Positions 28,226-49,008 of a DNA stretch of 64,000 bases are shown here, piece after piece. The translations under genes were made by a program, and so were the position numbers. Positions within the stretch are counted from its first letter, which is position 1. Every line of letters starts with the position of its first letter. The notes beneath the pieces are model-generated. The model did no database searches. It was given only the letters and a program-made list of their open reading frames with translations, and was not told the origin of the DNA. The stretch is from assembly GCF_015353075.1 (NCBI RefSeq), contig NZ_CP064188.1, positions 62,001-126,000 on the forward strand, in the 5' to 3' direction. The stretch is from Rhizobium sp. 007. Lineage in GTDB: Bacteria; Pseudomonadota; Alphaproteobacteria; Rhizobiales; Rhizobiaceae.

Positions 28226-28297
28226 CCGGTTGACTAAACGCGCTGGCGCATCAAAAGCGATTTCGCCAGCGCCCATTCTGTCCGGGCGAGGAATATC

Positions 28298-30327: not shown

Positions 30328-30344
30328 CTGCGGAACGCTCGAAA

Positions 30345-31373: not shown

Positions 31374-31416
31374 AGCAAGGCCGGCACTGCGGCCATTAGA
31401 AAGGGATGGAAGATCA

Positions 31417-31878
31417 ATGCTCAAGGGAATCAGGGCCGAACTCAACGGCGACATTCTTCAAGCACTTTGCAACATGGGACACGGCGACTATCTCGTCATT
31501 TCCGACATGAACTTTCCGTCGGATTCGATAGCCCGACAGACGCGTCTGGGTAAGCTTTTGACTATGGAAAACATCCCCGCGCCGCAGGCGATAGACGCGG
31601 TCCTTTCCGTCTTCCCGCTGGACACACCGATCCAGCCTTCGGTGGGGCGCATGGAAGTGATCGGCAAGCCCGATGAAATTCCGCCGATTCAACAGGAAGT
31701 CCAGGCCATTGTCGACCGCGCCGAAGGCAAGCCATCGCCGATGTATCCCGTCGAACGGATGGCGTTCTATGACATCGCCAGCAAGGCCTATTGTGTGATC
31801 GCAACCGGGGAACTGCGATTCTACGGATGTTTCCTTCTGACCAAGGGTGTCATTGCCGCGGCGGAGACCGTCAGATGA
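31417..31878 (+). CDS. RbsD/FucU-family sugar mutarotase
   Basis: The 153-residue cytoplasmic protein matches the RbsD/FucU fold: LQALCNMGHGDYLVISDMNFP with the conserved catalytic-site H22, and a C-terminal CVIATGELRFYGCFLLTKGV. Family members interconvert sugar anomers so that the next enzyme receives the right form. The length is that of FucU rather than shorter RbsD. The stop overlaps the start of the PfkB kinase (ATGA), so the two proteins are coupled and probably act in series. Confidence 0.88.
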   Translation: MLKGIRAELNGDILQALCNMGHGDYLVISDMNFPSDSIARQTRLGKLLTMENIPAPQAIDAVLSVFPLDTPIQPSVGRMEVIGKPDEIPPIQQEVQAIVDRAEGKPSPMYPVERMAFYDIASKAYCVIATGELRFYGCFLLTKGVIAAAETVR

Positions 31879-32804
31879 GCGAAAAAAGTGGGATCGTCAT
31901 TCTGGGCATTTTTGCCGCCGACACCGCCTACAAGGCCAAGCGCCTGCCCCATCTTGCCGAGACGCTGATGGGGTCGGGCTTTACGCTTGGGCCGGGAGGC
32001 AAGGGCTCCAACCAGGCAATTGCCGCGGCAAAAGCCGGCGGTAAGGTGACCTTTATCTCCCGGGTCGGCAACGACCCGTTCGGCGAAATGGCGCTTGCGG
32101 CCTATGCGGCGGCGGGCGTCAAAGCCAATGTGATGAAGATGGAAGGCGTATCCACAGGCGCGGCCTTCATCTTCGTCGACGAAGTGAGCGGCGACAATGC
32201 CATCATCGTCGCACCGGGTGCCGCAGGCCTTATCGGCATCGACGATGTCGACGCGAACCGGACGGAGATCGAAAACGCTGCCATTTTCATGACCCAACTC
32301 GAACAGCCGCTCGAGGCGGCCATACATGGCCTGTCGATGGCGAAAAGGGCAGGAGCGACGACGATCTTCAACCCCGCGCCTGCCCGCGCCATCCCGGACA
32401 GCATCTACGGCTTGTGCGATTTCATCGTCCCGAATGAAGTCGAAGCAGCGGAAATGGTGGGCCACCCGATCGAAACCGATGAACAGGCACGTGGGGCGGC
32501 CTGCAGCTTGCTTGATCGAGGGGCGCGAGCGGTGATCATCACGCTCGGCGCACGCGGCGCCTTCTATCACAGCACCGGGCAGAGCGAATTCGTACCCGCG
32601 TTCTCGGCGGGCAATGTCATCGACACAACCGGAGCCGGGGATGCCTTCCTTGGCGCCTTCGCGACGGCGATTTCCGAAGGATGTGCGCCGGTCGAGGCTG
32701 TCCGATTCGGTTGCGCGACCGCGGCAATCGCCGTGACGCGGCCGGGCACGGCCCCCGCCATGCCTTCGCGCGCCGAGATCAACGCCTTGCTGCGCTCATC
32801 ATGA
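31875..32804 (+). CDS. PfkB/ribokinase-family sugar kinase
   Basis: The 309-residue cytoplasmic kinase phosphorylates the imported sugar. The N-terminal glycine motif GPGGKGSNQAIAAAKAGG (39-56) and the C-terminal DTTGAGDAFLGAF (250-262, catalytic base D256) are the two PfkB signatures. The start ATG overlaps the mutarotase stop. Substrate pocket residues are not diagnostic; together with RbsD/FucU, a pentose or deoxyhexose is the best guess. Confidence 0.9.
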   Translation: MSEKSGIVILGIFAADTAYKAKRLPHLAETLMGSGFTLGPGGKGSNQAIAAAKAGGKVTFISRVGNDPFGEMALAAYAAAGVKANVMKMEGVSTGAAFIFVDEVSGDNAIIVAPGAAGLIGIDDVDANRTEIENAAIFMTQLEQPLEAAIHGLSMAKRAGATTIFNPAPARAIPDSIYGLCDFIVPNEVEAAEMVGHPIETDEQARGAACSLLDRGARAVIITLGARGAFYHSTGQSEFVPAFSAGNVIDTTGAGDAFLGAFATAISEGCAPVEAVRFGCATAAIAVTRPGTAPAMPSRAEINALLRSS

Positions 32805-33463: not shown

Positions 33464-33479
33464 TTATGTTGTAACATAA
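33464..33479. promoter_or_regulatory. Inverted repeat TTATGTTGTAACATAA
   Basis: Perfect 7-bp arms (TTATGTT/AACATAA) around GT, 154 bp before the degenerate response-regulator gene. A 13-bp part (TGTTGTAACATAA) is repeated exactly at 40598-40610 before the aminotransferase operon. Likely operator of the GntR protein at 39851 (inference). Confidence 0.6.
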
Positions 33480-33580
33480 ACGGAAGATCAAGCCTTTATG
33501 AATCACGCAAAACGTGTTTATTGAAGTAAATTCTCGTTTATACGCCTATTGGAGGTGGTTTTGCCGCTATCTGCCTTGTA

Positions 33581-33593
33581 TGATGTAACATCA
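33581..33593. promoter_or_regulatory. Palindrome TGATGTAACATCA
   Basis: A 13-bp perfect palindrome with central A containing the same TGTAACA core as the site at 33464. It lies 40 bp before the chosen start of the response regulator, where binding would block expression. Confidence 0.5.
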
Positions 33594-33632
33594 AAAATGG
33601 CTCTTCATCGCAGGACGTCCGCGAGGTACCAA

Positions 33633-34322
33633 ATGACACCCCGTATCGCAATCCTATCAATGGATGCGGACTACTACCTGATGCTGTCCCACGTTCTCTT
33701 GGCCGCAGGCTATTCAACAGTTCTGGCCGATGGATCCGAGGCAGCACTGGCATTGATCGCCGAGAAAAAGATCGAAGTGCTGCTGATCGACTGCCAGCCG
33801 GCGTCCTCCATCCTTTCAGATCTTTCCGACCGGCTGAAGGCATCAGGCCATTCAACAGACGTGCTGGTCGTCGCGCTCGTTGCCGAAGGAGTTCCCTATA
33901 TCGACATTCTCAAGGCTGAGGTCGATGAGAGTTTCATCCGCCCGATGAAGCCCGAATGGCTGCTGTCTTACCTTCATGGCCGTCTTAAAGGAGGCACCAA
34001 TGACGCTGCCGGTCGCTCCGCCACTTCCGGTCCAGACGATCTCCGGCTCGATGCCGGCGCAAGACGCGCGCTTGCAAACGACAAGCCGGTAGGCCTCAGC
34101 CCGATCGAATTCCGGATACTCAGCACTTTGATGAGCATACCCGGGCGGGTGTTTGGCCGGCCCGAATTGATCGAGGCAGTCTGGCCAAAGGCGAATTTCG
34201 TGGACCCACGAACCGTCGACGTGCATGTGGCGAGATTGCGCCGCTCCTTGCACGATGCTCTCGGGCGCGAGGTCATCCGGACCGTTCGCGGCGAGGGATA
34301 TGCTGTCGAAATGAAGGAATGA
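33633..34322 (+). CDS. Atypical OmpR-type regulator with degenerate receiver (first of two)
   Basis: The 229-residue protein has a receiver-like domain (about 3-118) and a winged-helix output domain ending IRTVRGEGYAVEM. The presumed phosphoacceptor D53 (LLIDCQP) and one acidic residue (MDAD) remain. The conserved switch Thr is replaced (VVALVAEG) and the switch Lys is Arg (FIRP, R103). It is probably phosphorylation-independent or ligand-sensing. It resembles the regulator at 44512. The start is uncertain: TTG 33561 follows a good GGAGG but would put the 33581 palindrome inside the gene; ATG 33633 is preferred. No kinase is nearby. Confidence 0.8.
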   Translation: MTPRIAILSMDADYYLMLSHVLLAAGYSTVLADGSEAALALIAEKKIEVLLIDCQPASSILSDLSDRLKASGHSTDVLVVALVAEGVPYIDILKAEVDESFIRPMKPEWLLSYLHGRLKGGTNDAAGRSATSGPDDLRLDAGARRALANDKPVGLSPIEFRILSTLMSIPGRVFGRPELIEAVWPKANFVDPRTVDVHVARLRRSLHDALGREVIRTVRGEGYAVEMKE

Positions 34323-34442
34323 ACGTCACGCAAGCCTTTCGGGCCGTCACAGAATCTTAAGGAAAAATTCGGGCTGGCTTCGTTGTATGAAGGCGGGGCT
34401 CCTCCTTACGCTTAATGGATCAGAAGCGGGCGGGAGGGTTCA

Positions 34443-35684
34443 ATGCAGAACGAACAACAGCACAATGCGCCGATGCCTACGCGGCATCGCAACACCGCAA
34501 GTCTCATCCATACCTCGGCGCCGCATTTTACCGCGGCACATTCGAAGGGCCTTATGGCGCTCTATGCGAGGCCGCTCGCAGGGCGAAAGGCCGAGATACG
34601 ATCGGCAAATGGCAAGACGAGAATTGTGACCGATTTCGTGCGGTGTTCCTATCTTGGGCTCGACAATCATCCGATGATCGCGGCCGGTGCGATGGCAGCA
34701 GTCCTGGACTACGGGACCCTTCACTGGTCCTGCGCGCGAACGCGCCTGAATTTTGCCGCTCTCGGCACCCTCGAGGAAGCCCTATCGGATCTCTTCGGTG
34801 CGCGTGTCATTACATACACGACGGTGCTTGCCGCCAACATGAGTGCATTGCCACTGATCGCCTCGGGCGCGCTGACAGAGGGTGTCAAGCCCGTCATGGT
34901 CTTCGATCGTTTGGCCCATGCAACGCTCGCCTTCAACAAGCCGGTCGTCGCCGAAGAGACAGATGTCCGCACGATCGCTCATAACGACCTTGCCGCGCTC
35001 GAAGAGATCTGCGAGGCACACCCATGCGTCGCCTATATCTGCGACGGCGTCTATTCGATGGGTGGCAATGCGCCCATCGCCAAGCTTCTGGAGCTCCAGC
35101 GGCGCTATGGATTATTCCTTTATATCGACGACGCCCATGGCGTTTCGATCTTCGGAGAGAAGGGCGCGGGTTTTGCCCGTTCGCAGATGCCAGGTGGCCT
35201 TGGCGACCGGACGATCGTTGCAGCCTCTCTCGGCAAGGGCTTCGGTGCTTCCGGCGGCATCCTGATGCTCGGCACGGCGCCACAGGAGGAGATCTTTCGG
35301 CGTTTCGCCATTGCCCATGCCTTTTCCGCTTCGATCAATGTTGCCGCAATCGGGGCTGCCATGGCGTCTCAAAGCCTCCATCGCACGGATGAGCTCAGGC
35401 ATCGGCAGCAGAGGCTTGCGGCAAACATCGCACTCTTCGACGAATTGGTGCCGACCGCCCAGTCCGGATCGACACTCCCGATCCGAACCGTTCTCATCGG
35501 CGATGAATTGGCAGCGATCAACGCCGCAAGACGTGTTCTGGTCGCCGGCAGCTATGTGTCGGCCATCTTCTTTCCGACAGTTGCTTCCGGGCGGGCCGGC
35601 CTGCGCGTCTGCCCGACCGCCGATCATACTGTCGATGAGATCAGGGCGCTTGCCCTGGCAACCGACAAGGCACTGGAGCGGTAG
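34443..35684 (+). CDS. Alpha-oxoamine synthase (PLP-dependent, BioF/KBL/CqsA superfamily)
   Basis: The 413-residue cytoplasmic enzyme belongs to the family that condenses an amino acid with an acyl-CoA to give an alpha-amino ketone with loss of CO2. Visible residues: H159 in DRLAHATL (stacks on PLP), DDAHG (229-233) and PLP lysine K265 in SLGKGFGASGG. The substrate loop WSCARTRLNFAALG differs from BioF (usual GTR-x-x-x-G). GGGAGG precedes the ATG. Family members make biotin precursors, sphingoid bases, aminolevulinate, aminoacetone or alpha-hydroxyketone signals; which applies is unknown. It follows the regulator by 120 bp. Confidence 0.82.
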   Translation: MQNEQQHNAPMPTRHRNTASLIHTSAPHFTAAHSKGLMALYARPLAGRKAEIRSANGKTRIVTDFVRCSYLGLDNHPMIAAGAMAAVLDYGTLHWSCARTRLNFAALGTLEEALSDLFGARVITYTTVLAANMSALPLIASGALTEGVKPVMVFDRLAHATLAFNKPVVAEETDVRTIAHNDLAALEEICEAHPCVAYICDGVYSMGGNAPIAKLLELQRRYGLFLYIDDAHGVSIFGEKGAGFARSQMPGGLGDRTIVAASLGKGFGASGGILMLGTAPQEEIFRRFAIAHAFSASINVAAIGAAMASQSLHRTDELRHRQQRLAANIALFDELVPTAQSGSTLPIRTVLIGDELAAINAARRVLVAGSYVSAIFFPTVASGRAGLRVCPTADHTVDEIRALALATDKALER

Positions 35685-35718
35685 GGAAGGGAGCCGGGTC
35701 TTTCGACCCGACACATCT

Positions 35719-36774
35719 TCAGCGTATCCAGGCGTTCCAGCGCTCCAGCAGCAAGGCGGCATTGGTGTTGATCCACGTGGCATCCGGGATGACGATATGA
35801 TCCCGGATGTCTTCCTCGCTCGGAAGCGCTGCACGGGCCGCCGGCGACATCGCCGCGATCGCCTTGCTGCTTGGCGGCGTGCACAGTAGCTCCTCGCAGA
35901 CGCGCGCCTGCGCGTCCGGACTGTTCAGCCAGAAGGCGATCAGCATCAGGGCATTTTCCTTATTTGGCGCTCCCTTGATGACGGTCAGACGATCGCCGAC
36001 CAGGAAGGACGCTTGATTGGACCAGCCGATGGCGCGCCCCTCGGCCTTCAACGCATTGGCTCGCGTCAGCCAGATCTGGCCGATGCTGTAGTCGCCGTTG
36101 CGGAAGCCCTGCACACTTTGGTCGCCGGTCTTCCACCAGACGGAGATGTCGCCGCGAATGGTTTCAAGCTTGGCGAGCGCCCGATCGATATCGAGCGGGA
36201 AGAGCCTCTCCCGCGCGACACCGTCGGCAAGCAGGGCAGCCGCCATAACGCGCCAGGGATCGTCGAAATTCGGAAAAGCCCGCCCGCCCGGAAAGCGTTT
36301 CGTGTCCCACATGTCCGCCCATGTCGTCGGTGCTCCATCGGGGAACGCGTCGGATTTATAGGCCATCAACGTTGCCGTCGAAAACAGCCTGGCGCCGGCA
36401 CCGATGCAGGCGTCCTCAACGAGGTCCGGCCGGTCCTTGAACGCCTCGCAGAACACAGCGAGGTCTTCCGATGTCGCCTTGTGATTGTCGGAATCCGCCT
36501 GGATTTCCCCGTCGGGATAAAGATCCCAGGTCACATTGCCGGTTTTGACCATGGCCGTTGCCTTGGCGCGCATCTCGGCATTGGTCGCAGCCACCGAAAC
36601 GACCTTGATCCCGGTGCTCGCGGTGAACGGATCGAACCAGAACTTCCTCAGGGCAGCGTCATAAGAGCCACCCGTCGTTGCCACTACAACGCGCTCCTCA
36701 GCAAGTGCCGGCGAAACCACAGCGAACTGCAGGGCAGCCATGCAGGCTGCGATAAATGTCATTGACCTCTTCAT
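35719..36774 (-). CDS. PotD-type ABC substrate-binding protein
   Basis: The 351-residue periplasmic protein has a Sec signal (MKRSMTFIAACMAALQFAVV, ending ALAEE) and a type-II binding fold (VVVATTGGSYDAALRKFWF near the N-terminus). It resembles spermidine/putrescine and opine/iron-type solute-binding proteins. I chose ATG 36774 because GAGGA lies 5 nt upstream; a GTG at 36786 is an alternative. It is the last gene of a four-gene ABC operon transcribed toward the alpha-oxoamine synthase, with convergent 3' ends 34 bp apart. Confidence 0.88.
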   Translation of the reverse strand: MKRSMTFIAACMAALQFAVVSPALAEERVVVATTGGSYDAALRKFWFDPFTASTGIKVVSVAATNAEMRAKATAMVKTGNVTWDLYPDGEIQADSDNHKATSEDLAVFCEAFKDRPDLVEDACIGAGARLFSTATLMAYKSDAFPDGAPTTWADMWDTKRFPGGRAFPNFDDPWRVMAAALLADGVARERLFPLDIDRALAKLETIRGDISVWWKTGDQSVQGFRNGDYSIGQIWLTRANALKAEGRAIGWSNQASFLVGDRLTVIKGAPNKENALMLIAFWLNSPDAQARVCEELLCTPPSSKAIAAMSPAARAALPSEEDIRDHIVIPDATWINTNAALLLERWNAWIR

Positions 36775-36805
36775 GTCTTTCCTCACGTGATAAAAATTCG
36801 ACCGC

Positions 36806-37636
36806 CTACTCCTCCCGGCGGCCCTTCAGGAGTTCGACCGAGCCCATCAACAAAAGCGAGATTGCGACCACGAGGGTCGAGACCGCGGCGATGACGGGCG
36901 TCAGGTTGAAATCGATGTCTTCGAACATCTTCCGGCTGATCGTCTTGCCTCCTGTATCCGAGATGAAGAACGCGACCGTCGCCTCGTCGAAGGAGGCGAG
37001 GAAGGCGAAGACGGCGGCCACTGCCACGGCAGGCGCGATGTTCGGCAGGACCACGCTGAAAAATGCCCGTGTTCGCGAAGCGCCGCAGCTGAGCGCCGCA
37101 CGCTCGAGCGCCGGATCGAAACGCTCGAGTGCTGCGCTGACGGTAATCACCACATAGGGGATCGACAGGACGCAATGGGCAATCAGAAAGCCGCTGAAGT
37201 TGCCGGTAAGCCCGATCGGCGAGAAGGCGAGATAAAGCGCGACGCCGAAGACGACATGCGGAACGATCATCGGAGCCATCGCCAACGCCTTCAGAGCGTT
37301 CCGGCCGGGCAGGCTCCCGCGCACGATCGCAAGCGACGCCAGCGTGCCTGTCGCAGTCGCTGCGACAGCGGTCGAAAGCGCAATCTTCAGACTGAAGACG
37401 GTTGCTGCCTGCCAGTCCGGATCGGCCAGATAATCGAGGTACCAACGCAGCGTCAGCCCGCGGGGCGGCAACTCGATATAGGCCGTTCCGTTGAGCGACA
37501 TTGGAACGATGAGAAGCGTGGGCATCAGCAGGAAGAACAGCACGGCGCCGATTCCGACACCGCCCGCGAGCCGAACGATCGTCATGCGGAGCGGATGGCC
37601 AATGGTTTTTGCTGCAACGGATTGATCAGGCGACAC
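36806..37636 (-). CDS. PotC-type ABC permease
   Basis: The 276-residue inner-membrane permease has six helices, with the EAA-loop region ERAALSCGASRTRAFFSVVL (about residues 178-197). The GTG start lies inside the end of the preceding permease gene (11-bp overlap), so the two are coupled. Family: polyamine/opine/Fe(III)-type importers. Confidence 0.87.
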   Translation of the reverse strand: MSPDQSVAAKTIGHPLRMTIVRLAGGVGIGAVLFFLLMPTLLIVPMSLNGTAYIELPPRGLTLRWYLDYLADPDWQAATVFSLKIALSTAVAATATGTLASLAIVRGSLPGRNALKALAMAPMIVPHVVFGVALYLAFSPIGLTGNFSGFLIAHCVLSIPYVVITVSAALERFDPALERAALSCGASRTRAFFSVVLPNIAPAVAVAAVFAFLASFDEATVAFFISDTGGKTISRKMFEDIDFNLTPVIAAVSTLVVAISLLLMGSVELLKGRREE

Positions 37637-38543
37637 TGTTTATTCCTTTGCTGATCGAAAGTGCGCGGCGGAACACGAGGACGAAGAGCAGCGTTACCAG
37701 GAGCAGGACGCTCGAAAGAGCTGCTGCAAACGGCCAGTCGAGAACGACCGTCGTCTGCTGGGCAATGAGGGTCGCCATGGTCATGGCTTCCGGTCCACCG
37801 ACGAGTGCTGGAGTGATGTAAAAGCCGATCGCCAGGATGAAACACATGACGCAGCCGGCAAACACGCCGGGTAGCGAGAGCGGCAGGACGACGCGCAGGA
37901 AGGTCGCAAGCGGACCTGCGCCAAGGCTGCGGGCCGCGAGCGCATAGTCAGGGGAGATCGAGCGCAACGCATTGGCGATGGGCAGGATCATGAACGGCAT
38001 CAGCACATGCGTCATGGCCAGGATGACCGCGCCGTCGGTATAAAGCAATTTCAGCGGCGCGGCGATGAAACCGCTCTCGACCAGAAAGGCGTTGACGAGG
38101 CCGCTGCGCTGCAAGAGCACGATCCAGGCGTAGGAGCGCACGAGCACCGAGGTCCACAATGGAACGAGGACCGCCGCGGCAATGACGAGCGCCAGGCGGC
38201 CCCGCGCTTTGGACATCGCCAGAGCGACTGGATAGCCGAACATCAGGCTGAGCAGCGTGACGATAGCGGCAGTCGAGATCGTGCGCGACAAGACGCCGAG
38301 GTAAAGCGGTGTCGCAAAGATGCGCCGGTATTGCTCGAGATCCGCTGCGGCGTCGCCGAAGCTCATGATCACGAGTCGCGCAATCGGATAGAGGAAGCCG
38401 ATCGAAAACAGGACCGTCAACGGCATCAGGAGAACGAGTGTCAATATTGGTCCGTAGCGCCCGGCCGGTCTCGCTGCTCTAAGGCGTAGCGCCGGTCTGA
38501 TGAGGCGTCCAGGTGTTGGTGCGGCCGACATATCCATGCTCAC
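37626..38543 (-). CDS. PotB-type ABC permease
   Basis: The 305-residue inner-membrane permease has a hydrophilic N-terminus of about 30 residues, six helices and EAA-type loop ALAARSLGAGPLATFLRVVL. The GTG start at 38543 overlaps the ATPase stop (GTGA); internal ATGs at residues 3 and 5 are alternatives. Translational coupling along the operon is tight. Confidence 0.87.
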   Translation of the reverse strand: MSMDMSAAPTPGRLIRPALRLRAARPAGRYGPILTLVLLMPLTVLFSIGFLYPIARLVIMSFGDAAADLEQYRRIFATPLYLGVLSRTISTAAIVTLLSLMFGYPVALAMSKARGRLALVIAAAVLVPLWTSVLVRSYAWIVLLQRSGLVNAFLVESGFIAAPLKLLYTDGAVILAMTHVLMPFMILPIANALRSISPDYALAARSLGAGPLATFLRVVLPLSLPGVFAGCVMCFILAIGFYITPALVGGPEAMTMATLIAQQTTVVLDWPFAAALSSVLLLVTLLFVLVFRRALSISKGINSVA

Positions 38544-39637
38544 GACCCTTGCCTTTCGAACAGATGCAGGCTGTCTTGGTCTGCCACGATGTCGACCCGC
38601 GCGCCGGCATTGAGACCGGCCGGTTTGGTATCGACCGACGTCTGGACCTGGATGAGCGGACGGCCATCGGTCTCGGCGCGCACCAGATGCAGGTCGCAGG
38701 CTCCGGTAAAAACACTCGCTTCAAGCGTTCCGGGAATGACGTTCCTTCCGCCTTTGCCGCGTGCCGTCAGGCATAGCTTTTCCGGGCGCATGGCAAGCTT
38801 CAGCCGCGCGCCTGGACGGATCGTGCCGTTGACGCTGCTTGCCTGCAGCACGACGGTCTCGCCAAGCCTCACCGCATGAAAACCCTCATGAAGGCCAAGA
38901 TAGATCCCCTCGGCAAAGCTCATTCGGCCGATGAAATCGGCAACGAATGCGGTTTGCGGCTGCCGGTAAAGCGTTGCAGGGCTTCCCACCTGGACAATCT
39001 CGCCGGCAGCCATGACGGCGACCCGATCCGACATGGTGAGCGCCTCCTCCTGATCGTGCGTGACATAGATCACCGTCGCCCCAAGGCGTTGCTGAAGCTG
39101 CTTGATCTCCAACTGCATGGCCTCTCGCAGCTTCTTGTCGAGCGCGCCGAGCGGCTCGTCCATGAGGAGCACCGGTGGCTCGAAGACGATGGCACGGGCA
39201 ACCGCGACGCGCTGCTGCTGGCCGCCTGACAGTTGATGGGGATAGCGGCGAGCAAGGTCACCGAGCTGCACGAGTTCGAGCGTCTCGGCCACCTTGCGCT
39301 CCCGTTCGTTTCGCGGCAGGTGGCGCATCTTCAGCGGAAAGGCGATGTTTTCGGCAACAGTCATGTGCGGAAAAAGCGCGTAGCGCTGGAACACCATGCC
39401 TATGTCGCGCCGGTTAGGCGCGAGCTGCGTGACGTCCCGCCCGCCGATGACGATGCGCCCGGCGCTTGGCGTCTCAAAACCGGCTATCATGGTCAGAAGC
39501 GTCGTCTTTCCCGAGCCCGATGGCCCGAGGATCGAAACGAATTCGCCAGCTTCGACCTCAAGCGTCACGCTTCGGACCGCGGTATGGGCGCCATACTGCT
39601 TGCATGCGCCGTCGATGAGTATGGGGGCACCGATCAA
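38540..39637 (-). CDS. PotA-type ABC transporter ATPase
   Basis: The 365-residue ATPase starts at TTG 39637, which has GGAGGAG 5 nt upstream; the longer open frame to 39754 would cross the divergent promoter. Walker A GPSGSGKTT (38-46), signature LSGGQQQRVA, Walker B PVLLMDEPLGALD and switch His in YVTHDQEEALT are intact, with a C-terminal TOBE domain. It is the first gene of the operon and divergent from the GntR regulator gene. Confidence 0.9.
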   Translation of the reverse strand: MIGAPILIDGACKQYGAHTAVRSVTLEVEAGEFVSILGPSGSGKTTLLTMIAGFETPSAGRIVIGGRDVTQLAPNRRDIGMVFQRYALFPHMTVAENIAFPLKMRHLPRNERERKVAETLELVQLGDLARRYPHQLSGGQQQRVAVARAIVFEPPVLLMDEPLGALDKKLREAMQLEIKQLQQRLGATVIYVTHDQEEALTMSDRVAVMAAGEIVQVGSPATLYRQPQTAFVADFIGRMSFAEGIYLGLHEGFHAVRLGETVVLQASSVNGTIRPGARLKLAMRPEKLCLTARGKGGRNVIPGTLEASVFTGACDLHLVRAETDGRPLIQVQTSVDTKPAGLNAGARVDIVADQDSLHLFERQGS

Positions 39638-39761
39638 GTTTTCTCCTCCTACTTGAGCCGTCCGTACGGTCTGAAGACATGGCTTTGCCGCTCCGGCGGC
39701 GGGTCTTTCCAAGCACGCGCGCCGCAATCTCCGCCTAGCGTTGCGAATGTTCACAATCTCG

Positions 39762-39818
39762 TTATGCTGTTACATTAAACCGTAATATTCCTGTAATATG
39801 TGTTTTGTTGCAACAAAA
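39762..39818. promoter_or_regulatory. Operator cluster between ABC operon and gntR-type gene
   Basis: The 213-bp divergent region contains TTATGCTGTTACATTA (39762-39777), a variant of the TTATGTTGTAACATAA motif. It also has two GTATAT-like direct repeats GTAATAT (39782-39788 and 39793-39799, 11 bp apart) and the 16-bp perfect palindrome TTTTGTTGCAACAAAA (39803-39818). GntR/FCD autoregulation at one of these is likely (inference). Confidence 0.6.
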
Positions 39819-39850
39819 ACGCGGCATGTCAATGCTGGGGGGGAGAAAAA

Positions 39851-40561
39851 ATGGACGAAAGTACAACTGCGAGTGCTTCTGGTGCGGAAGGCCACCAGGG
39901 GCGGCTCAGCGATTATGTCTATGAATCGCTCAAGGATCAGCTCACCCGAGGCGCTTACAGCCCCGGCAAGAAGCTGCCGATCCGCACTGTCGCCGAGACA
40001 TTGGGCGTCGGGTCTACTCCGGCGCGCGAAGCGATCAATCGACTGGTCTTCGAAGGCGCCTTGGTGATGTCGGGTCCGAAGACCGTCATCGTTCCCTATC
40101 TCGATCTTGCGGGGCTTTATGAGGTGACGCAGATGCGGCTTGCCCTCGAGGGGCTTGCGGCCGAAAAAGGTGCCGCCAGCGCAACCGACGAAACCGTCGA
40201 AACTCTTTTGAAATTACAGGAGAAAATCAGTCTTTCCCTCGACGAGAAGCGCTACAGGGATGCGCTACACGTCAATAAAGAGTTTCATTTTACCATCTAT
40301 CGTCTTTGTGGCATGCCGCATCTTCTCTCGACGATCGAAGCTTTATGGCTGCGTGTCGGATCATCCTTCCACGATCTCTATCCGGAATTTGCCGAGCAGC
40401 GATACGGCGTCCACAACCACATGGTCGCCATCGAGGCGCTGGCCGAGGGTGAGGCGTCTTTCGTGCGAGCGGCCATGGAAAATGACATTCGCGACGGCTA
40501 CAGGCGCCTCAAGAAGGCGGCCATGTCGCGCGTCGGACATCGCGCTGCGCCGTCCGGTTGA
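39851..40561 (+). CDS. GntR-family regulator with FCD domain
   Basis: The 236-residue regulator has an N-terminal winged helix (about 18-85; IRTVAETLGVGSTPAREAIN) and an FCD ligand-binding domain (about 95-225) with an NKEFHF segment that supplies metal/ligand-binding His. The chosen ATG at 39851 follows GGGAG by 6 nt. It sits between the ABC operon (divergent) and the aminotransferase operon (downstream), where shared TGTAACA sites occur. Effectors of FCD regulators are usually organic or amino acids of the controlled pathway. Confidence 0.9.
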   Translation: MDESTTASASGAEGHQGRLSDYVYESLKDQLTRGAYSPGKKLPIRTVAETLGVGSTPAREAINRLVFEGALVMSGPKTVIVPYLDLAGLYEVTQMRLALEGLAAEKGAASATDETVETLLKLQEKISLSLDEKRYRDALHVNKEFHFTIYRLCGMPHLLSTIEALWLRVGSSFHDLYPEFAEQRYGVHNHMVAIEALAEGEASFVRAAMENDIRDGYRRLKKAAMSRVGHRAAPSG

Positions 40562-40597
40562 TCTTTTTTGTTGCATCTCCTTCGCCATTGTGATTTT

Positions 40598-40610
40598 TGT
40601 TGTAACATAA
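40598..40610. promoter_or_regulatory. Operator-like motif TGTTGTAACATAA
   Basis: Thirteen bases are identical to part of the inverted repeat at 33464-33479. The motif sits 41 bp before the aminotransferase ATG, where bound regulator would block the promoter. Confidence 0.6.
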
Positions 40611-40650
40611 TTGCAATGTTCGGACGCACGGTGCGTCCCGGAGGAAGAAG

Positions 40651-42012
40651 ATGCTTCATACACGTGACATTTCCGGGGACCGGCCGCTGTCGCGCGCCCG
40701 GTCCCATCATTTTTTCAACAGAGGGCGGAAAATCTTTCCCTCGGGCGTGACGCGGGTGACCGTCGAGCGTCAACCGGTGCCGCTCTACATTGCCCGCGGC
40801 GAAGGGGCTTATGTGCTCGACGTCGACGGCAACCGGTTCTTGGATCTCAACAACAATTTTACGACGTTGATCCACGGCCACGGTTTCCTGCCCGTCGCCG
40901 ACGCCGTTGCCGACCTCCTTCACCGCGGAACCTGCTTTTCCAATCCGACGGAACACGAAATCGCCCTTGCCGAACTCCTCTCCGAGCGCATTCCGGCGAT
41001 CGAACACGTTCGCTTCGTCAACAGCGGGACGGAAGCCGTAATGTTTGCGATCAAGGCGGCGCGTGCCTTTACGGGCCGGACCGGCATCGTCCGCGTCGAG
41101 GGCGCCTATCATGGCGCCTATGACTGGGCCGAGGCCGGTCAGTCGAGTTCACCGACACGTTGGGGGGACGGGTCGAGACCCGATGCGATTCCCGCCTATC
41201 GCGGGACGCCCCCGTCGGTCGCCGACGATGTTGCCGTCATTCGCTTCAATGATGTCGAGGGCGTCGAACGGCGAATGGCGGACGTTGGCGCAAGAACGGC
41301 CTGCGTCCTTATCGATCCCATGCCGAGCCGCGCGGGGCTGATCGAGCCGAAGGCGGATTTCCTGGAGGCGTTGCAGGCTGCCGCGCGCAAGCATGGCGTT
41401 CTCCTCGTCGCCGATGAAGTGCTCAATCTGCGGCAGTCCTATCGCGGCGCCTCGGCCCGCTATGGCCTTGAACCGGATCTGATTGCCTGCGGCAAGATCA
41501 TCGGCGGCGGCTTTCCAGTAGGCGCTGTCGGTGGACGGGCAAACGTCATGAGCGTTTTCGCCAACGACAAGGGAAAGCCGCTCCTGCCGCAGGGCGGAAC
41601 ATTTTCGGCAAACCCCGTGTCGATGGTGGCCGGCCGTGTTGCGATGGAGGCGATGACCGAGGACGCCTTCGACGGTCTGGAGCGCCTTGGTGATCACGTC
41701 CGGTCCGGATTGCAGGACGCAATCGATCGCACCGGCGCGCCCTTCAGCGTCAGCGGTGCCGCCTCCTTGTTTCGCATCCATCCGAAGAAGCAGGTGCCCA
41801 GCGACTATCGAAGCGGCTATCCGACACAGGCCGAAAACGACATCAATACCGCGCTTTCCGATTGTTTCCTTCACCGCGGCATCCTGCTGCCGAACGGCGC
41901 CGCCGCCTGCCTGTCGACCGCAATGACGGCCTACGACGCCGATGCGGTCGTCACGACCTTCTCCGACTTCCTCTCGACCCCTGCCGCTCAAGAATTCGAG
42001 GCCTCCCGATGA
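40651..42012 (+). CDS. Class-III aminotransferase (HemL-like)
   Basis: The 453-residue PLP enzyme resembles glutamate-1-semialdehyde aminomutase and related omega-aminotransferases. Motifs: NSGTEAVMFAIKAAR (phosphate-binding loop, 125-138), YHGAYDW (153-159), D255 in VADEVLN (pyridine N) and PLP lysine K282 in CGKIIGGGFPVGA. A perfect GGAGGAAGAAG precedes the ATG. The fold alone does not show the substrate. Its stop overlaps the start of the ThDP enzyme (ATGA). Probably uses an amino donor delivered by, or related to, the ABC importer's ligand (inference). Confidence 0.87.
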   Translation: MLHTRDISGDRPLSRARSHHFFNRGRKIFPSGVTRVTVERQPVPLYIARGEGAYVLDVDGNRFLDLNNNFTTLIHGHGFLPVADAVADLLHRGTCFSNPTEHEIALAELLSERIPAIEHVRFVNSGTEAVMFAIKAARAFTGRTGIVRVEGAYHGAYDWAEAGQSSSPTRWGDGSRPDAIPAYRGTPPSVADDVAVIRFNDVEGVERRMADVGARTACVLIDPMPSRAGLIEPKADFLEALQAAARKHGVLLVADEVLNLRQSYRGASARYGLEPDLIACGKIIGGGFPVGAVGGRANVMSVFANDKGKPLLPQGGTFSANPVSMVAGRVAMEAMTEDAFDGLERLGDHVRSGLQDAIDRTGAPFSVSGAASLFRIHPKKQVPSDYRSGYPTQAENDINTALSDCFLHRGILLPNGAAACLSTAMTAYDADAVVTTFSDFLSTPAAQEFEASR

Positions 42013-43724
42013 CACATTCCCCTGACATGTTGACAGTCGCGGAGCGTATTGCGCTCAGCTTGAAGCGGCACGACGTTTCAATGATCTTTGCCCAAAGCCT
42101 TCCGTCCGCCGTCATTCTCGCAGCCGAGGCGATCGGCATCCGGCAGGTTGCCTACCGGCAGGAAAACATGGGCGGCACGATGGCCGATGGCTATGCGCGG
42201 CGGTCGGGAAAGGTCGGGGTCGTCGCCGCCCAGAACGGTCCGGCGGCAACACTTCTCGTTCCGCCGCTCGCCGAAGCCCTGAAGGCCTCCGTGCCGATCG
42301 TTGCCCTCGTTCAGGACGTCGAACGGGATCAGGCGGATCGCAACGCGTTCCAGGAACTCGACCATCTGGCGCTCTTCCAGTCCTGCACAAAATGGGTGAG
42401 AAAGGTGATCGTTCCCGAACGCATCGACGACTATATCGACGCCGCGTTTACCGCCGCGGTATCGGGGCGGCCGGGGCCTGTCACCCTGCTGCTTCCCGCC
42501 GACCTCCTGCGCGCAAAGATCGAGGAGCCGGTGCTGCGCCGGTCGGTGAGCTTGGGACGATGGCCGCTTGACCGCAACCGTCCGGCGGACACAGATATCG
42601 CGCGGGCCGCGGCAATGATCGCCGCGGCACGGGCGCCCGTCGTCATCGCCGGCGGCGGCGTGCATGCGAGCCGCGCCGCTCCGTCGCTCGCAAAGCTCCA
42701 GGAGGAAGCATGCCTTCCCGTTCTCACGACCAATATGGGCAAGGGGGCCGTCGACGAACATCATCCATTATCGGCTGGTGTCCTGGGCGCGCTGGTCGGT
42801 CCGAATTCGCTCGGCCGCCATACGCTTGCCCTTGTCCAGGAGGCGGATGTCGTTCTCCTCATCGGAACGAGAACCAATCAGAACGGCACCGACAGTTGGC
42901 GTCAGATTAACCCAGCCTCGACCGTCATCCATATCGACGTCGACCCTTCGGAAATCGGACGCACCTATGAAGCCGTCAGGCTAGCAGGTGATGCGGCCGA
43001 GACCATTGACACGTTACGGGCAGCCCTTGCGACGCGCGATCTGTCGAAACGTCACGCCGCGCGTGCGGAACTGGTCGAACGCATCGCCAATTGCTGGGCG
43101 ATGTTTGACGCCGAACGGCAACGCGTCAGTCATTCAGGTGCAACTCCGATCCGGCCGGAACGGATCATGCGCGAGCTGCAATCGCAATTGACAGCAGATA
43201 CGACGGTCGTCGCAGACGCGAGCTACTCCTCAATGTGGGTTGCAGGACAGCTCCGGTCGCTTTCAGCCGGGATGCGGTTTTTGACGCCGCGCGGTCTTGC
43301 GGGCCTCGGTTGGGGATTGCCGCTTGCGCTGGGCGCAAAGCTTGCCGATCCGGACAAGCCTGTTGTCGTCTTCGTCGGCGACGGCGGTTTTGCCCACAGC
43401 TGGGCCGAGCTCGAGACAATGGTCCGAAGCAACATCCCTGTGCTGATCATCGTTCTCAACAACGGCATCCTGGGGTTTCAGCGCGATGCAGAGACCGTAA
43501 AGTTCGGACGCTTCACCAGCGCCTGCCATTTTGTCGATGTCGATCACAGCCAAATCGCTGCAGCGTGCGGATGCCCGGCCGTCCGTGTCAGCGTCGCCGA
43601 CGGGCTTGCCGACCATATCCGCACGGGGCTATCCGGCAATAAACCCTTGATGATCGAGGTCTTGACCGATCCCGAGGCCCATCCGCCGCTGTCACTTTTT
43701 GCCGCAATGGACGAGGCGGCATGA
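42009..43724 (+). CDS. Thiamine-diphosphate enzyme, acetolactate-synthase-like
   Basis: The 571-residue protein has the three domains of the acetolactate synthase/benzoylformate decarboxylase family. These are an N-terminal PYR domain with catalytic E52 (RQENMGGTMADGY), a middle domain and a C-terminal PP domain with GDGG (457-460) and NN (484-485) for ThDP-Mg binding. Not recognisably true IlvB: it lacks a neighbouring small subunit. Possible chemistries are decarboxylation of a 2-oxo acid or carboligation to an acyloin. Coupled by ATGA overlaps to the genes on both sides. Confidence 0.85.
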   Translation: MTHSPDMLTVAERIALSLKRHDVSMIFAQSLPSAVILAAEAIGIRQVAYRQENMGGTMADGYARRSGKVGVVAAQNGPAATLLVPPLAEALKASVPIVALVQDVERDQADRNAFQELDHLALFQSCTKWVRKVIVPERIDDYIDAAFTAAVSGRPGPVTLLLPADLLRAKIEEPVLRRSVSLGRWPLDRNRPADTDIARAAAMIAAARAPVVIAGGGVHASRAAPSLAKLQEEACLPVLTTNMGKGAVDEHHPLSAGVLGALVGPNSLGRHTLALVQEADVVLLIGTRTNQNGTDSWRQINPASTVIHIDVDPSEIGRTYEAVRLAGDAAETIDTLRAALATRDLSKRHAARAELVERIANCWAMFDAERQRVSHSGATPIRPERIMRELQSQLTADTTVVADASYSSMWVAGQLRSLSAGMRFLTPRGLAGLGWGLPLALGAKLADPDKPVVVFVGDGGFAHSWAELETMVRSNIPVLIIVLNNGILGFQRDAETVKFGRFTSACHFVDVDHSQIAAACGCPAVRVSVADGLADHIRTGLSGNKPLMIEVLTDPEAHPPLSLFAAMDEAA

Positions 43725-44497
43725 GCACCGGCGGGACGGGGCGGGTTGCCGTCATCAGCGGCGGGACCACTGGCATCGGCCTTGCAACTGCCCGTCGGCT
43801 CCTGAGGGGCGGCTATCGCGTAGGCGTTTTCGGGCACAGCGCCGAGAGCGTCGAGCAAGCCGGCGCCAGTCTTGCCGAGAGCGTCGAAGCGGGTCGCGCT
43901 GTCGCCTCGCAGGTCGACCTTCGCAAGCCCGAAGCCATTCAGAGCTTCTTCAATGACATCCGTGCTCGCTTTGGTGCGCCGTCGGTCCTGGTCTGCTGCG
44001 CCGGGGTCTCACCGAAAGGCAACAATGGCCCGTCACTGGTAAGTACCATTCCGCTCGGGGAATGGGATGACGTGCTTTCCATCAATCTGACAGGTGCTAT
44101 GCTGTGCTGCCAGTACGTTTTGCCCGATATGCAGAACAACCGGTTCGGGCGCATCATCTTCGTAGGATCGCTCGCTGGCCGGACGCGACCATTGATTGCC
44201 GGGCCGGCCTATGCGGTCTCGAAGGCAGCCCTTGCCGGATTGTCACGTTCGCTTGTAACCCAATACGGGCGCTTCGGTATCACCGCCAATGTTGTTGCGC
44301 CCGGCCGAATTCTGACCGGAATGACGGGTCCGGCTTCAAGCGATACCAATCGTGAGGCAATTACGCGAATTCCGGCCGGCCGCTTGGGGACAACCGACGA
44401 GGTCTCGGCCGCCATCGTGTTTCTCGCATCCGACGAGGCAGGCTTCGTCAATGGCGCGATACTCGACGTCAATGGCGGCGAGTTTACGCCAAGCTGA
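43721..44497 (+). CDS. Short-chain dehydrogenase/reductase
   Basis: The 258-residue SDR has the cofactor glycine motif SGGTTGIG (13-20), CAG in strand 4 (93-95) and the catalytic set S150, Y164, K168 (YAVSK). Ends in NGAILDVNGGEF, the usual SDR C-terminus. It is FabG-like by sequence but operon context suggests reduction or oxidation of a ketone/alcohol made by the ThDP enzyme or alpha-oxoamine synthase. It overlaps the ThDP gene by four bases; 14 bp separate it from the second regulator. Confidence 0.88.
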   Translation: MSTGGTGRVAVISGGTTGIGLATARRLLRGGYRVGVFGHSAESVEQAGASLAESVEAGRAVASQVDLRKPEAIQSFFNDIRARFGAPSVLVCCAGVSPKGNNGPSLVSTIPLGEWDDVLSINLTGAMLCCQYVLPDMQNNRFGRIIFVGSLAGRTRPLIAGPAYAVSKAALAGLSRSLVTQYGRFGITANVVAPGRILTGMTGPASSDTNREAITRIPAGRLGTTDEVSAAIVFLASDEAGFVNGAILDVNGGEFTPS

Positions 44498-44511
44498 GAG
44501 GAGGGGCTGCG

Positions 44512-45231
44512 ATGGAAAATCGGGTGCTGATCTGCACAGAGGATCCGGAGCTCTATCTTCTCTTAAACCACATCCTGTCCGTAGAGGGGTTTCCGAGCCA
44601 GCTCGCCGACAGTGACGCCGATGTCGAATGTTGTCTGCAGAAAGGCGGGCTGCTTGCCGTCATCTTCGATGGTGTTGCGTGGCGCGGCGATATCGTCGCC
44701 CTTTGCAGCCTGTCAAAACAGGCTGGACTTGCCGTCGGCGCGTTGATCGCCGGCCACATGCGAACCATGCATCTGCAGATGATCAAGGCCGGGCTTGATG
44801 ACGGCATCATGCGACCGCTCGCCCCCGAACGCCTGCTTGCCTTTCTCCGGCACGCACGTCGTGCGGCCGGTAATCCGTCTGCCTTTGGTGAAGTCCCGCC
44901 GTCAGCTTTGCCCACCGATATATCGGTTTCGTCCGATTCACAGCACGTCACGATCAGTGGAAGGCATCTGGCATTAACCTCGATCGAAGGTCGAATCCTT
45001 GAGACACTCATTCGCCACGGCAACAGGACCTGCTCCCGGGGCGATTTGCTGACTGCCGTCTGGCGAGAGCCGCACGACGTTGGCACCCGCACTGTGGATG
45101 TCCATATCGCTCGCCTTCGAAAGGCTCTGTCCGCCTGTCATGACGTCCGGATCAAGACAGTCTATGGCGAAGGATATGCGCTTGTTTCAACGAGAAAGGG
45201 TGAGGAGTTACGCGTCGCGGCGAGGCGATAA
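44512..45231 (+). CDS. Atypical OmpR-type regulator with degenerate receiver (second of two)
   Basis: The 239-residue protein is a paralogue of the regulator at 33633 (shared Y-L-x-L-x-H-x-L-x-x-x-G-F/Y and LAD spacing, RP-x-x-PE-x-LL). It has an acidic E10/D11, D53 at the phosphoacceptor position (VIFDGV), but no switch Thr (GALIAGH) and Arg (R101) instead of Lys. The C-terminal winged helix ends IKTVYGEGYALV. GAGGAGG precedes the ATG. It closes the operon; the position of one such regulator at each end of the locus suggests a sensory role tied to the pathway. Confidence 0.8.
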   Translation: MENRVLICTEDPELYLLLNHILSVEGFPSQLADSDADVECCLQKGGLLAVIFDGVAWRGDIVALCSLSKQAGLAVGALIAGHMRTMHLQMIKAGLDDGIMRPLAPERLLAFLRHARRAAGNPSAFGEVPPSALPTDISVSSDSQHVTISGRHLALTSIEGRILETLIRHGNRTCSRGDLLTAVWREPHDVGTRTVDVHIARLRKALSACHDVRIKTVYGEGYALVSTRKGEELRVAARR

Positions 45232-47184: not shown

Positions 47185-49008
47185 ATGCGCAGGCCTACCG
47201 TCCGAACTTCCCTGAGCGTCATCAATCTGACGTTTGCGTCCATTTTTCTCGCCTTCGCCTTATTCTCGCTGAGTAGCGTGCGAGCGGTAAATGAAGACAC
47301 CACTGCCATCGCCAAGAACTGGCTGCCGAGCGTTTCCGTAGTCCGGAATATGCAACTCAAACTCCAGGAAATGAAGTTTGCGTATGCCAATCATATTATG
47401 TCCATCAGCGATGAGGCGATCGCAGCCGCGGAAAAGCACGTTACCGAGCAGAGGGAGGAACTGGCAAAAGCGATCGAAGCCTATAGTGCACTGATATCGT
47501 CGCCTCGCGAGAAGGAATTGCTGGAGCAGATCGGAAAACGCGCCGCCGACTATGCCAGTGCGGCCGCGCCGATGCTCGAGAAATCCCGAAAGAACGATAA
47601 CGACGCAGCCAAGAGCATTTTCTACAAGGATATGGAGCCCATTGTCCAGGAAGCCGAAAAGGATGCGAGCCAGCTGCTCGACATCAACGTGAGGGGTTCG
47701 GATGCCTCATATGAGAGCAGCAGGCTGACCTATGCGACGATCCTTTGGAGCACCTGGGCGCTCATCGCCCTTGTCCTGGCGCTCGTCGCCGGAGCCATTG
47801 CCTACGTTGCCGTGCAAATCTCCCGTCCAATCAAGGCGATTACGAGTTCGATGACGGGGCTTGCAGCAGGCGATACGGCCTCGGCCATTCCTTATGCGAG
47901 CCGAACGGACGAAATCGGCTCGATGGCCGGAGCAGTCGAAGTTTTCAGGCAGACGGCACTCGATAAGATCAAAGCTGACCAGGAAATCGAGGCAAACCGA
48001 GCCCTTTCAGAAAGTGAGCGCCAGCGGCGGGAGGAAATCGACCGGGCGCGCGCGGCAGCGATGGCCAAGGCGACGAATGGATTGGCTGCAAATTTGAAGA
48101 TGCTGGCCGACGGCGATCTCACAATCCGGATCAGCGAGACGTTCGATCCTGATTTCGAGGCGCTAAGAAGCGACTTCAACAGCGCGGTTGCCCAACTCTG
48201 TCGCACTCTGAGCAAAGTGGCCGGGTCGACAGGAGGCATCGACAGCGGATCGAACGAGATCGCCAACAGTGCGCATGACCTCGCAAGACGCACCGAACAG
48301 CAGGCGGCCGCCCTGGAGCAAACGGCCGCCGCGCTGGACGAAATCACGGCAAACGTCGCCTCATCTTCGAGACGCGCCGAGGAAGCTCGGAAGGTTGCAG
48401 CCGAGGCCAACGCCAGCGCAGCGACGTCGGGCCAGATTGTCACCCAGGCAGTCGACGCGATGAGCCGGATCGAGCAATCTTCCAACGAGATATCGAACAT
48501 TATCGGTGTCATTGACGAAATCGCCTTTCAGACCAATCTGCTCGCGTTGAACGCAGGTGTTGAGGCTGCACGCGCGGGCGAAGCTGGCAAGGGTTTCGCG
48601 GTCGTGGCCCAGGAGGTACGCGAACTGGCGCAGCGTTCCGCCAAGGCGGCGAAAGAAATCAAGGCGCTTATTCAAACGTCGAGCGGTGAGGTGGCGACAG
48701 GTGTGGAACTCGTCTCGAAAACCGGCGGTGCCCTGAAGCAGATTGGGGAACTCGTGGTGGTGATCAACCGACACGTCGACGCGATTGCTGTATCGTCGCG
48801 CGAGCAGTCAGTGGGTCTCGCGGAGATAAACACGGCAGTTAACAGCCTCGATCAAACGACCCAGCAGAATGCCGCTATGGTCGAGGAAGCGAGTGCCGCT
48901 TCCGCATCCCTGGCCAACGAGAGCGCCACGCTACGCGAATTGATTGGTCAGTTCAACGTTGGGAGTGCAACGCGACAACAAGCCTATCCGTTCCGCGAGA
49001 CCGCGTAG
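47185..49008 (+). CDS. Methyl-accepting chemotaxis protein
   Basis: The 607-residue inner-membrane chemoreceptor has two membrane helices (about 10-35 and 188-212) around a four-helix-bundle periplasmic sensor of about 150 residues. A HAMP domain follows, then a cytoplasmic signalling hairpin with tip motif DEIAFQTNLLALNAGVEAAR (CheA/CheW contact). Ala/Gln/Glu-rich methylation helices flank the tip. No C-terminal CheR-binding pentapeptide (ends FRETA). AAAGGAG lies upstream. Promoter elements are not obvious. Ligand unknown. It stands alone in this window. Confidence 0.93.
   Translation: MRRPTVRTSLSVINLTFASIFLAFALFSLSSVRAVNEDTTAIAKNWLPSVSVVRNMQLKLQEMKFAYANHIMSISDEAIAAAEKHVTEQREELAKAIEAYSALISSPREKELLEQIGKRAADYASAAAPMLEKSRKNDNDAAKSIFYKDMEPIVQEAEKDASQLLDINVRGSDASYESSRLTYATILWSTWALIALVLALVAGAIAYVAVQISRPIKAITSSMTGLAAGDTASAIPYASRTDEIGSMAGAVEVFRQTALDKIKADQEIEANRALSESERQRREEIDRARAAAMAKATNGLAANLKMLADGDLTIRISETFDPDFEALRSDFNSAVAQLCRTLSKVAGSTGGIDSGSNEIANSAHDLARRTEQQAAALEQTAAALDEITANVASSSRRAEEARKVAAEANASAATSGQIVTQAVDAMSRIEQSSNEISNIIGVIDEIAFQTNLLALNAGVEAARAGEAGKGFAVVAQEVRELAQRSAKAAKEIKALIQTSSGEVATGVELVSKTGGALKQIGELVVVINRHVDAIAVSSREQSVGLAEINTAVNSLDQTTQQNAAMVEEASAASASLANESATLRELIGQFNVGSATRQQAYPFRETA

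Follow-up and report, generated by a model that had tools for sequence, protein, structure and literature searches.

An att-type locus of Rhizobium sp. 007 with an operator-like palindrome before each of its three predicted transcription units

The window analysed here is a 64,000-nucleotide stretch of Rhizobium sp. 007 (contig positions 62001-126000 of the 7.6-Mb genome), and our subject is the eleven-gene locus at window positions 33633-45231. These are real genes, and a Rhizobium gallicum plasmid matches the region across its full length at 96.9%. By sequence, the locus is the rhizobial form of the one that includes attA1A2BC on pAtC58 of Agrobacterium fabrum. What is new is that an operator-like palindrome precedes all three transcription units and, at the stringency given below, occurs nowhere else in the genome. 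A first-pass annotation, made from the letters and reading frames of the DNA, had proposed one linked small-molecule system with no described equivalent known to it. Gene calls together with Pfam and NCBIfam profiles recovered all the parts it named, at or adjoining their positions; the linkage is supported by family co-occurrence and the common operator, but the claim to novelty is not supported, since the orthologous locus is the att region of A. fabrum C58.

Judged by their spacing, the genes are predicted to form three transcription units. The first holds RR1 (33633..34322, +), a response regulator (RR) of the OmpR/PhoB type with an atypical receiver, and an alpha-oxoamine synthase (AOS; 34443..35684, +) of the PRK07505 subfamily. 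The second, on the opposite strand, holds a PotA-like ABC ATPase (38540..~39679, -; start codon uncertain, reading frame open to 39754), two ABC permeases (37626..38543, -, and the PotC-like 36806..37636, -) and a periplasmic substrate-binding protein (SBP; 35719..36786, -); by gene order the ATPase would be the AttA1 orthologue, and the SBP is the orthologue of AttC (atu5129). It is divergent from the gene of a GntR/FCD regulator (39851..40561, +). The third encodes a class-III aminotransferase (AT; 40651..42012, +) of the glutamate-1-semialdehyde aminomutase (GSAM) group, a thiamine diphosphate (ThDP)-dependent, acetolactate-synthase-like enzyme of the PRK06112 subfamily (42009..43724, +), a short-chain dehydrogenase/reductase (SDR; 43721..44497, +) and RR2 (44512..45231, +), a second atypical OmpR-type regulator. 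The AT/ThDP and ThDP/SDR junctions overlap by 4 bases, and RR2, which starts 14 bases after the SDR gene, is probably the last gene of this operon. This is the att-type layout: an ABC importer divergent from GntR-AT-ThDP-SDR-RR, with an RR1-AOS pair nearby.

Alignment of upstream regions (seven sequences, the window's included) revealed the palindrome TGTTGYAACA in an A/T-rich frame, both 5' of RR1 and between the ATPase and GntR genes. The extended pattern, drawn up after that alignment had been viewed, has four matches in the window against 0.00 expected (100 shuffles). With at most one mismatch, TTNTGTTGYAACANAA has three occurrences in the entire genome, at window positions 33464, 39803 and about 40595, one for each unit; the backward control of this pattern gave one match per strand, genome-wide. 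Operator 1, TTATGTTGTAACATAAA (33464..33480, +), lies within one mismatch of TTNTGTTGYAACANAA and 5' of the RR1-AOS unit; operator 2, TTTTGTTGCAACAAAAA (39803..39819, strand not assigned), sits in the ATPase/GntR divergent promoter, and operator 3 (40594..40610, strand not assigned) 5' of the AT-ThDP-SDR-RR2 operon. The ATPase/GntR region also holds a possible degenerate second copy, TTATGCTGTTACATTAA (39762..39778, +), which scores below 14, the value from which sites were counted in our per-locus scan.

Relatives were scored with a matrix trained solely on AT promoters (15 distinct sites), using as threshold the 99.9th percentile of 1,797 shuffles (18.7); the shuffler was a scripted dinucleotide one that reverts to single-base shuffling. 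An earlier threshold, taken from the motif-bearing loci's own stretches, was too strict. The maximum in coding regions, used as a control, was 12.4. When promoters were counted after identity filters, the matrix exceeded its threshold 5' of 45/45 ATPase and 49/51 GntR genes, which have one divergent region in common, of 41/73 RR1-type genes (a count that includes the second RRs of other genera) and of 13/29 genes for homologues of the VirD2-binding protein VBP1, some of whose promoter regions are common to RR1. The figure for AT genes, 46/52, is not independent of the training set. Other promoters scored above threshold almost never: AOS 0/83, ThDP enzyme 0/41, SDR 0/47, PermC 0/39, RR2 0/19 and SBP 1/40.

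We consider that the GntR/FCD protein probably binds this palindrome, mainly because of one 20-kb stretch, L138, from genome G318 (L numbers denote stretches of relatives' DNA, G numbers sampled genomes). It carries GntR, AT and ThDP genes and has no AOS or RR match, and its sole two operator sites precede GntR and AT. Its GntR gene faces a divergent aldehyde-dehydrogenase-like open reading frame (ORF), and the neighbours of the GntR-AT-ThDP set (L138:1-14266), named by eye, are a transporter of the Opp type, a pair of hydantoinase-like ORFs and an aldehyde-dehydrogenase-like ORF. More distant ThDP copies (56-58%) adjoin GntR genes in L041, L044 and L141.

The same set of genes recurs well beyond this genome. 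All eleven are found in the window's order in annotated plasmid records of Rhizobium sp. N621 and R. acidisoli, and in other orders in Sinorhizobium meliloti (L049), A. fabrum C58 and Shinella. Two Ochrobactrum stretches (L093, L097) and one of Brucella tritici (L113) have ten of the eleven, with one RR missing at the cut end; a Mesorhizobium plasmid stretch that ends inside the transporter has one RR, and the AT of S. meliloti RCAM1750 reads in two frames. A neighbourhood comparison across the Rhizobiales, as suggested in the first-pass annotation, thus finds AOS, ThDP enzyme and both RRs conserved together in several genera. Its picture of a locus bracketed by two regulators holds for the gene order seen here, but not for Sinorhizobium and Agrobacterium, where both RRs are found to one side of the transporter.

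Co-occurrence was counted in 199 genomes of the family, five of which, our own included, have the AOS (E<=1e-100). All five carry the ThDP enzyme (15/199 at E<=1e-180; hypergeometric probability 1.2e-6) and the AT (10/199 at E<=1e-120; 1.0e-7), a co-occurrence beyond chance. With identity cuts chosen post hoc (ThDP enzyme >=63%, AT >=55%) each occurs in 6/199 genomes (2.4e-9); all of these probabilities ignore the relatedness of the genomes. In each of the five, AOS, AT and ThDP genes share one contig within about 14 kb. In the order sample the AOS is present in 4/199 genomes (E<=1e-60), three of them with a ThDP match (9/199 at E<=1e-150; 2.5e-4) and two with a close ThDP orthologue (100 and 67%).

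For locus counts, we used the best 80 of 124 AOS loci from a scan of GTDB contigs, with identity cuts applied and with flanks reaching up to 10 kb on either side, shorter where a contig ended. The flanks contain an RR of this family in 62, AT in 57, GntR in 49, ATPase in 49, SDR in 46, ThDP enzyme in 43, SBP in 34 and a VBP homologue in 29 of the 80; in 39 an operator of its own precedes the AOS unit, and in 10 the unit follows the SBP on the same strand. In a plasmid collection (tblastn, E<=1e-60), 131 of 72,556 records hold AOS relatives, and 97 of the 131 are typed conjugative. On the plasmids represented by L045, L046, L051 and L057 the locus is close to traA/traG/traC/traD or type IV secretion system genes, and on a Mesorhizobium plasmid it also stands beside an acyl-homoserine-lactone synthase and its regulator. 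Overall, the view that the eleven genes constitute one system is well supported in Rhizobiaceae-like genomes.

Bradyrhizobium L134 (1345-17630, scanned) has AOS, AT, SDR, an EctB-like aminotransferase, an enoyl-CoA hydratase, a family III CoA-transferase and an NtaA-type monooxygenase, and L129 of the same genus resembles it by eye, with no AT orthologue match; these clusters look biosynthetic. Mesorhizobium L124 (5462-17672) combines a radical SAM/SPASM protein, an EctB-like aminotransferase, a WelO5/HilA-like dioxygenase, AOS, SDR and AT with a fragmentary ThDP-like ORF (by eye) and an ATP-grasp fragment. In Mesorhizobium L057 (15359-21076), a second GSAM-like aminotransferase, an EamA transporter, a GNAT gene and two amidohydrolases lie between the AOS and an SDR-ThDP-AT operon. 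Distant AOS relatives of Rhodococcus and Rahnella (L052, L053) belong to candidate natural-product clusters, the former beside carrier protein, AMP-binding and nonribosomal peptide synthetase genes, the latter beside three ATP-grasp genes, a dioxygenase and a monooxygenase.

The AOS scores 514.8 bits against NCBIfam PRK07505 (cut-off 342). As a hydroxyketone autoinducer synthase of the CqsA/LqsA class, whose signals the first-pass annotation had named, it was rejected (NF005526, 54.7 bits against a cut-off of 428). Its nearest solved relative by sequence and fold is Alb29, which provides the first 11 matches of a structure search (38-39% identity, E 1e-38 to 7e-37; next match 1.4e-26). Residues R99, R101, H159, D229, H232, K265 and R388 are invariant in 12/12 aligned AOS, distant ones included, and H159, D229, H232, K265 and R388 are expected to supply the pyridoxal phosphate lysine and catalytic His, Asp and Arg known for this family. 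The AT was rejected as HemL, and with it a heme role (TIGR00713, 311.1 bits; cut-off 527.3). The ThDP enzyme matches PRK06112 at 937.4 bits (cut-off 673), a subfamily to which we know of no assigned reaction, and was rejected as a biosynthetic acetolactate synthase (TIGR00118, 331.3 bits; cut-off 538.35); BbmA and CsmA are among its relatives. The enzymes stay under the cut-offs of those characterised families that were tested, and the predicted chemistry suits alpha-amino- or alpha-hydroxyketones.

The two regulators are OmpR-like in their output domains, with Trans_reg_C above cut-off in both. No Pfam receiver match was obtained for RR1 at E<=0.001 or for RR2 at E<=0.5; full-length PhoB models match both below cut-off, and relatives in L063 and L069 have weak Pfam receiver matches (E 0.0023-0.055). 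The predicted model of RR1 has a receiver-plus-winged-helix layout (mean pLDDT 86.6, pTM 0.55; best PDB match MtrA). In RR1 the Asp is retained, and the acidic pocket, Thr and Lys are lost. We aligned 113 RRs, two of them from the window; four repeat loci had been removed from the 120 matches, as had sequences that were identical, interrupted or short. Among the 87 rows from the 80 loci and the window, 83 combine loss of the first acidic residue with loss of both the Thr/Ser and the Lys, and the Asp survives in 76 of those 83. Six canonical relatives included in this alignment read EDDTK. Most of the locus RRs lack the acidic pocket, switch Thr/Ser and Lys of canonical OmpR/PhoB receivers, and the earlier description of both receivers as degenerate is borne out. 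Structure matches of RR1 include GlnR and 2hqr (HP1043, 'atypical orphan response regulator'), ranked under canonical ones.

Homologues of VBP1, an NTase/HEPN protein, lie near the atypical RRs in the 29 loci counted above, and in G136 two extra RR copies elsewhere are each paired with a VBP homologue. Homologues from these two groups are those at L051:21387-22328, L050:11848-12768, L035:9409-10311 and L037:225-1130; the window has none at E<=1e-8.

The reading we favour, and hold about as firmly as we doubt it, is GntR-controlled import and conversion of a small amino compound. The GntR/FCD protein would bind the palindrome TGTTGCAACA and keep the units repressed in the absence of a pathway ligand. 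A small amino compound from the plant or nodule would enter through the PotABCD/opine-type importer; the GSAM-type AT, ThDP enzyme and SDR would take off or shift its amino group, break or form a C-C bond and turn ketone into alcohol or back. The AOS would carry out the alpha-aminoketone step by which the pools of amino acids and acyl-CoA feed into this pathway. It is unlikely that RR1 and RR2 are ordinary phospho-switches; they might fine-tune the units, perhaps by sensing the small molecule. We lean towards assimilation of an imported compound over synthesis of a signal, and a catabolic route for an imported amino compound, which the first-pass annotation had left on an equal footing, is still at least as likely.

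Two relatives lend support, the first of them in planta; the papers cited here and below are represented by excerpts, and statements credited to them have that scope. In S. meliloti, potABCD3 (SMa0951-3), called putrescine uptake, is listed among the symbiosis transport genes found by transposon sequencing (PMC7268258). In A. fabrum C58, expression of the att operon (atu5126-5130) is lowered in vrsA and vtlR mutants; atu5116, 5118, 5119 and 5121 are also changed in the vtlR mutant, without binding of the VtlR protein to those promoters (PMC7486931). The L138 setting, with its Opp-, hydantoinase- and aldehyde-dehydrogenase-like ORFs, adds a catabolic flavour.

Several observations weigh against import and conversion by a single system. 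AOS chemistry is described as irreversible synthesis (PMC11906848), which is awkward for a purely catabolic route, and distant AOS relatives adjoin biosynthetic genes. The binding of the operator by GntR is something we infer from sequence, and matches to the short core TGTTGNAACA, one mismatch allowed, are not significantly more numerous in the window than expected (10 against 6.7). Among the 80 AOS units, 11 have an RR but neither operator nor SBP linkage (three of which miss the threshold by no more than 1.2 bits); another 20 show neither an RR directly 5' nor an operator. AT, ThDP enzyme, SDR, GntR, ATPase and SBP are all missing from the fetched flanks of 15/80 loci. In the order sample, two of the four AOS genomes have no close ThDP orthologue (one has only 56% copies, one none), and in these two the AOS neighbourhoods (L039, L040) differ, other members of the set being absent or remotely similar. 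Given the 5/5 co-occurrence in the family and these exceptions in the order, linkage is strong in Rhizobiaceae-like genomes and looser further out.

The best-surviving alternative, possible although we would not expect it, is a self-made aminoketone or hydroxyketone circuit, a signal or public good. The AOS would join an amino acid, perhaps glutamate as with Alb29, to an acyl-CoA; AT and SDR would convert the product for export; importer and ThDP enzyme would retrieve and destroy it, and GntR and the atypical RRs would sense it. The invariant residues of the AOS suit this, as does its kinship with Alb29, which was crystallised with L-glutamate (PMC11906848). GNAT genes accompany the AOS in 20/80 loci and EamA-family transporter genes in 6/80, and four of the nine Bradyrhizobium loci among the 80 (L125, L127, L134, L137) keep AT, AOS and SDR with no ThDP match, L134 adding further enzyme genes. 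The importer likewise has no match in the fetched flanks of these four. By analogy with Alb29, a product made from glutamate may be a 4-amino-5-oxo acid, a homologue of glutamate-1-semialdehyde and so of the substrate type of the AT group; the joint occurrence of AOS and AT, kept up even where the Bradyrhizobium flanks show no importer, would then have an explanation. Against such a circuit, the AOS falls far under the autoinducer synthase cut-off, one GntR-linked operator for importer and enzymes resembles a nutrient locus, and the eleven genes include no exporter and no sensor histidine kinase, the rest of the genome not having been searched for a kinase. Somewhat more doubtful still is the specific form in which the circuit is plasmid-borne, with an Alb29-type AOS making the ketone, its own importer retrieving it, the ThDP enzyme degrading it, and the GntR operator and ligand-sensing pseudo-RRs in control; if true, it would cover rhizobia and agrobacteria, with an amino- or hydroxyketone as product.

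An opine-type, mannopine-like catabolic locus is improbable. The best solved relative of the SBP, 5l9s (484.4 bits), is deposited as 'ABC transporter, substrate binding protein (Mannopine)', a name that is annotation only, and several other binders outrank the agropine binder (85.6 bits) and MotA (80.7), both of which are far down from the best score. The mannopine enzymes MocC, MocD and MocE are not among the eleven genes, and AttC was reportedly found in 2016 not to bind mannopine.

That a regulator-AOS pair merely neighbours an unrelated amine-catabolism operon is very unlikely. The 15 AOS loci lacking the ABC/enzyme module, the two order-sample genomes lacking a close ThDP orthologue and G318, with close AT and ThDP orthologues and no AOS, would all suit it. 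We rule against it as the main reading on the co-occurrence of AOS, AT and ThDP enzyme in 5/5 family genomes, a clustering that survives rearrangement, and on a common operator that is unique to the locus genome-wide and present in relatives. A direct role of the locus in plant binding, which the name att implies, is the least credible reading of all, and the published data on attachment conflict: transposon insertions in att blocked attachment in calcium-containing medium (PMC4046570), but pAt-less strains are virulent, the attC and attG insertions are dominant negative, reviews find the genes dispensable for virulence and the attachment effect indirect or unclear (PMC4046570, PMC4018554), and the eleven genes are by family transport, metabolic or regulatory.

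Around the locus, the window holds what looks like a separate ABC importer of the sugar type, accompanied by genes for a LacI-type regulator and for RbsD-like and ribokinase-like proteins (26585-32804), and, 3' of the locus, a methyl-accepting chemotaxis-like protein (47185-49008), all named by eye. Scans of the whole window for tRNAs and Rfam families gave 0 matches.

Among known systems, Alb29 of the albogrisin pathway (Streptomyces albogriseolus) has an RxR motif in common with the rhizobial AOS; its genetic setting is very different, and the likeness is one of sequence and fold. CqsA/LqsA systems, which follow an AOS plus reductase logic, share the AOS fold, and differ in that the present locus has no kinase among its eleven genes and has atypical OmpR-type regulators. 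Those regulators resemble atypical OmpR-family proteins such as HP1043, GlnR and the ligand binder JadR1 in having a receiver fold with lost switch residues, and differ in that most keep the Asp.

The potABCD3 region on pSymA of S. meliloti 1021 (SMa0951-SMa0956 onwards) has the same gene set, as seen in L049, in the order of C58, the two RRs being separated by a VBP homologue. SMa tags were matched through gene order and published annotation; SMa0956, annotated as glutamate-1-semialdehyde aminomutase (PMC3272708), fits the AT by order.

The closest named counterpart is the locus of A. fabrum C58 (atu5117-atu5129), where traA and blcR/attM flank the orthologous genes. Identities are 56-62% for the ABC proteins, 52% for GntR, 57% for AT, 68% for the ThDP enzyme, 50% for the SDR, 30 and 35% for the two RRs and 64% for the AOS. 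C58 differs in that its RR1-AOS pair lies beyond RR2, not beside the SBP, and is followed by VBP1. Published assignments of attC to atu5129 (PMC9138961), of Atu5119 as a two-component response regulator (PMC7003649) and of VBP1 to atu5117 (PMC4667095), taken with gene order, would make the AOS atu5118 and the AT, ThDP enzyme and SDR atu5124, 5123 and 5122. The att genes were first found in 1987, and the reviews excerpted give them no agreed function (PMC4046570, PMC4018554); these excerpts and that of PMC9138961 contain no function for the neighbouring enzymes. Excerpts of open-licence literature naming Atu5117-5119, 5121, 5123 or 5124 offer expression data and VBP1 only, and among the matches listed for oxoamine synthases, Rhizobium and quorum sensing, none concerns the locus by title or abstract start. 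Evidence that places the att-type transporter in one regulon with an AOS, an AT, a ThDP enzyme and a reductase makes the function of att a testable question, with specific genes and an operator to work on and few chemistries to choose from.

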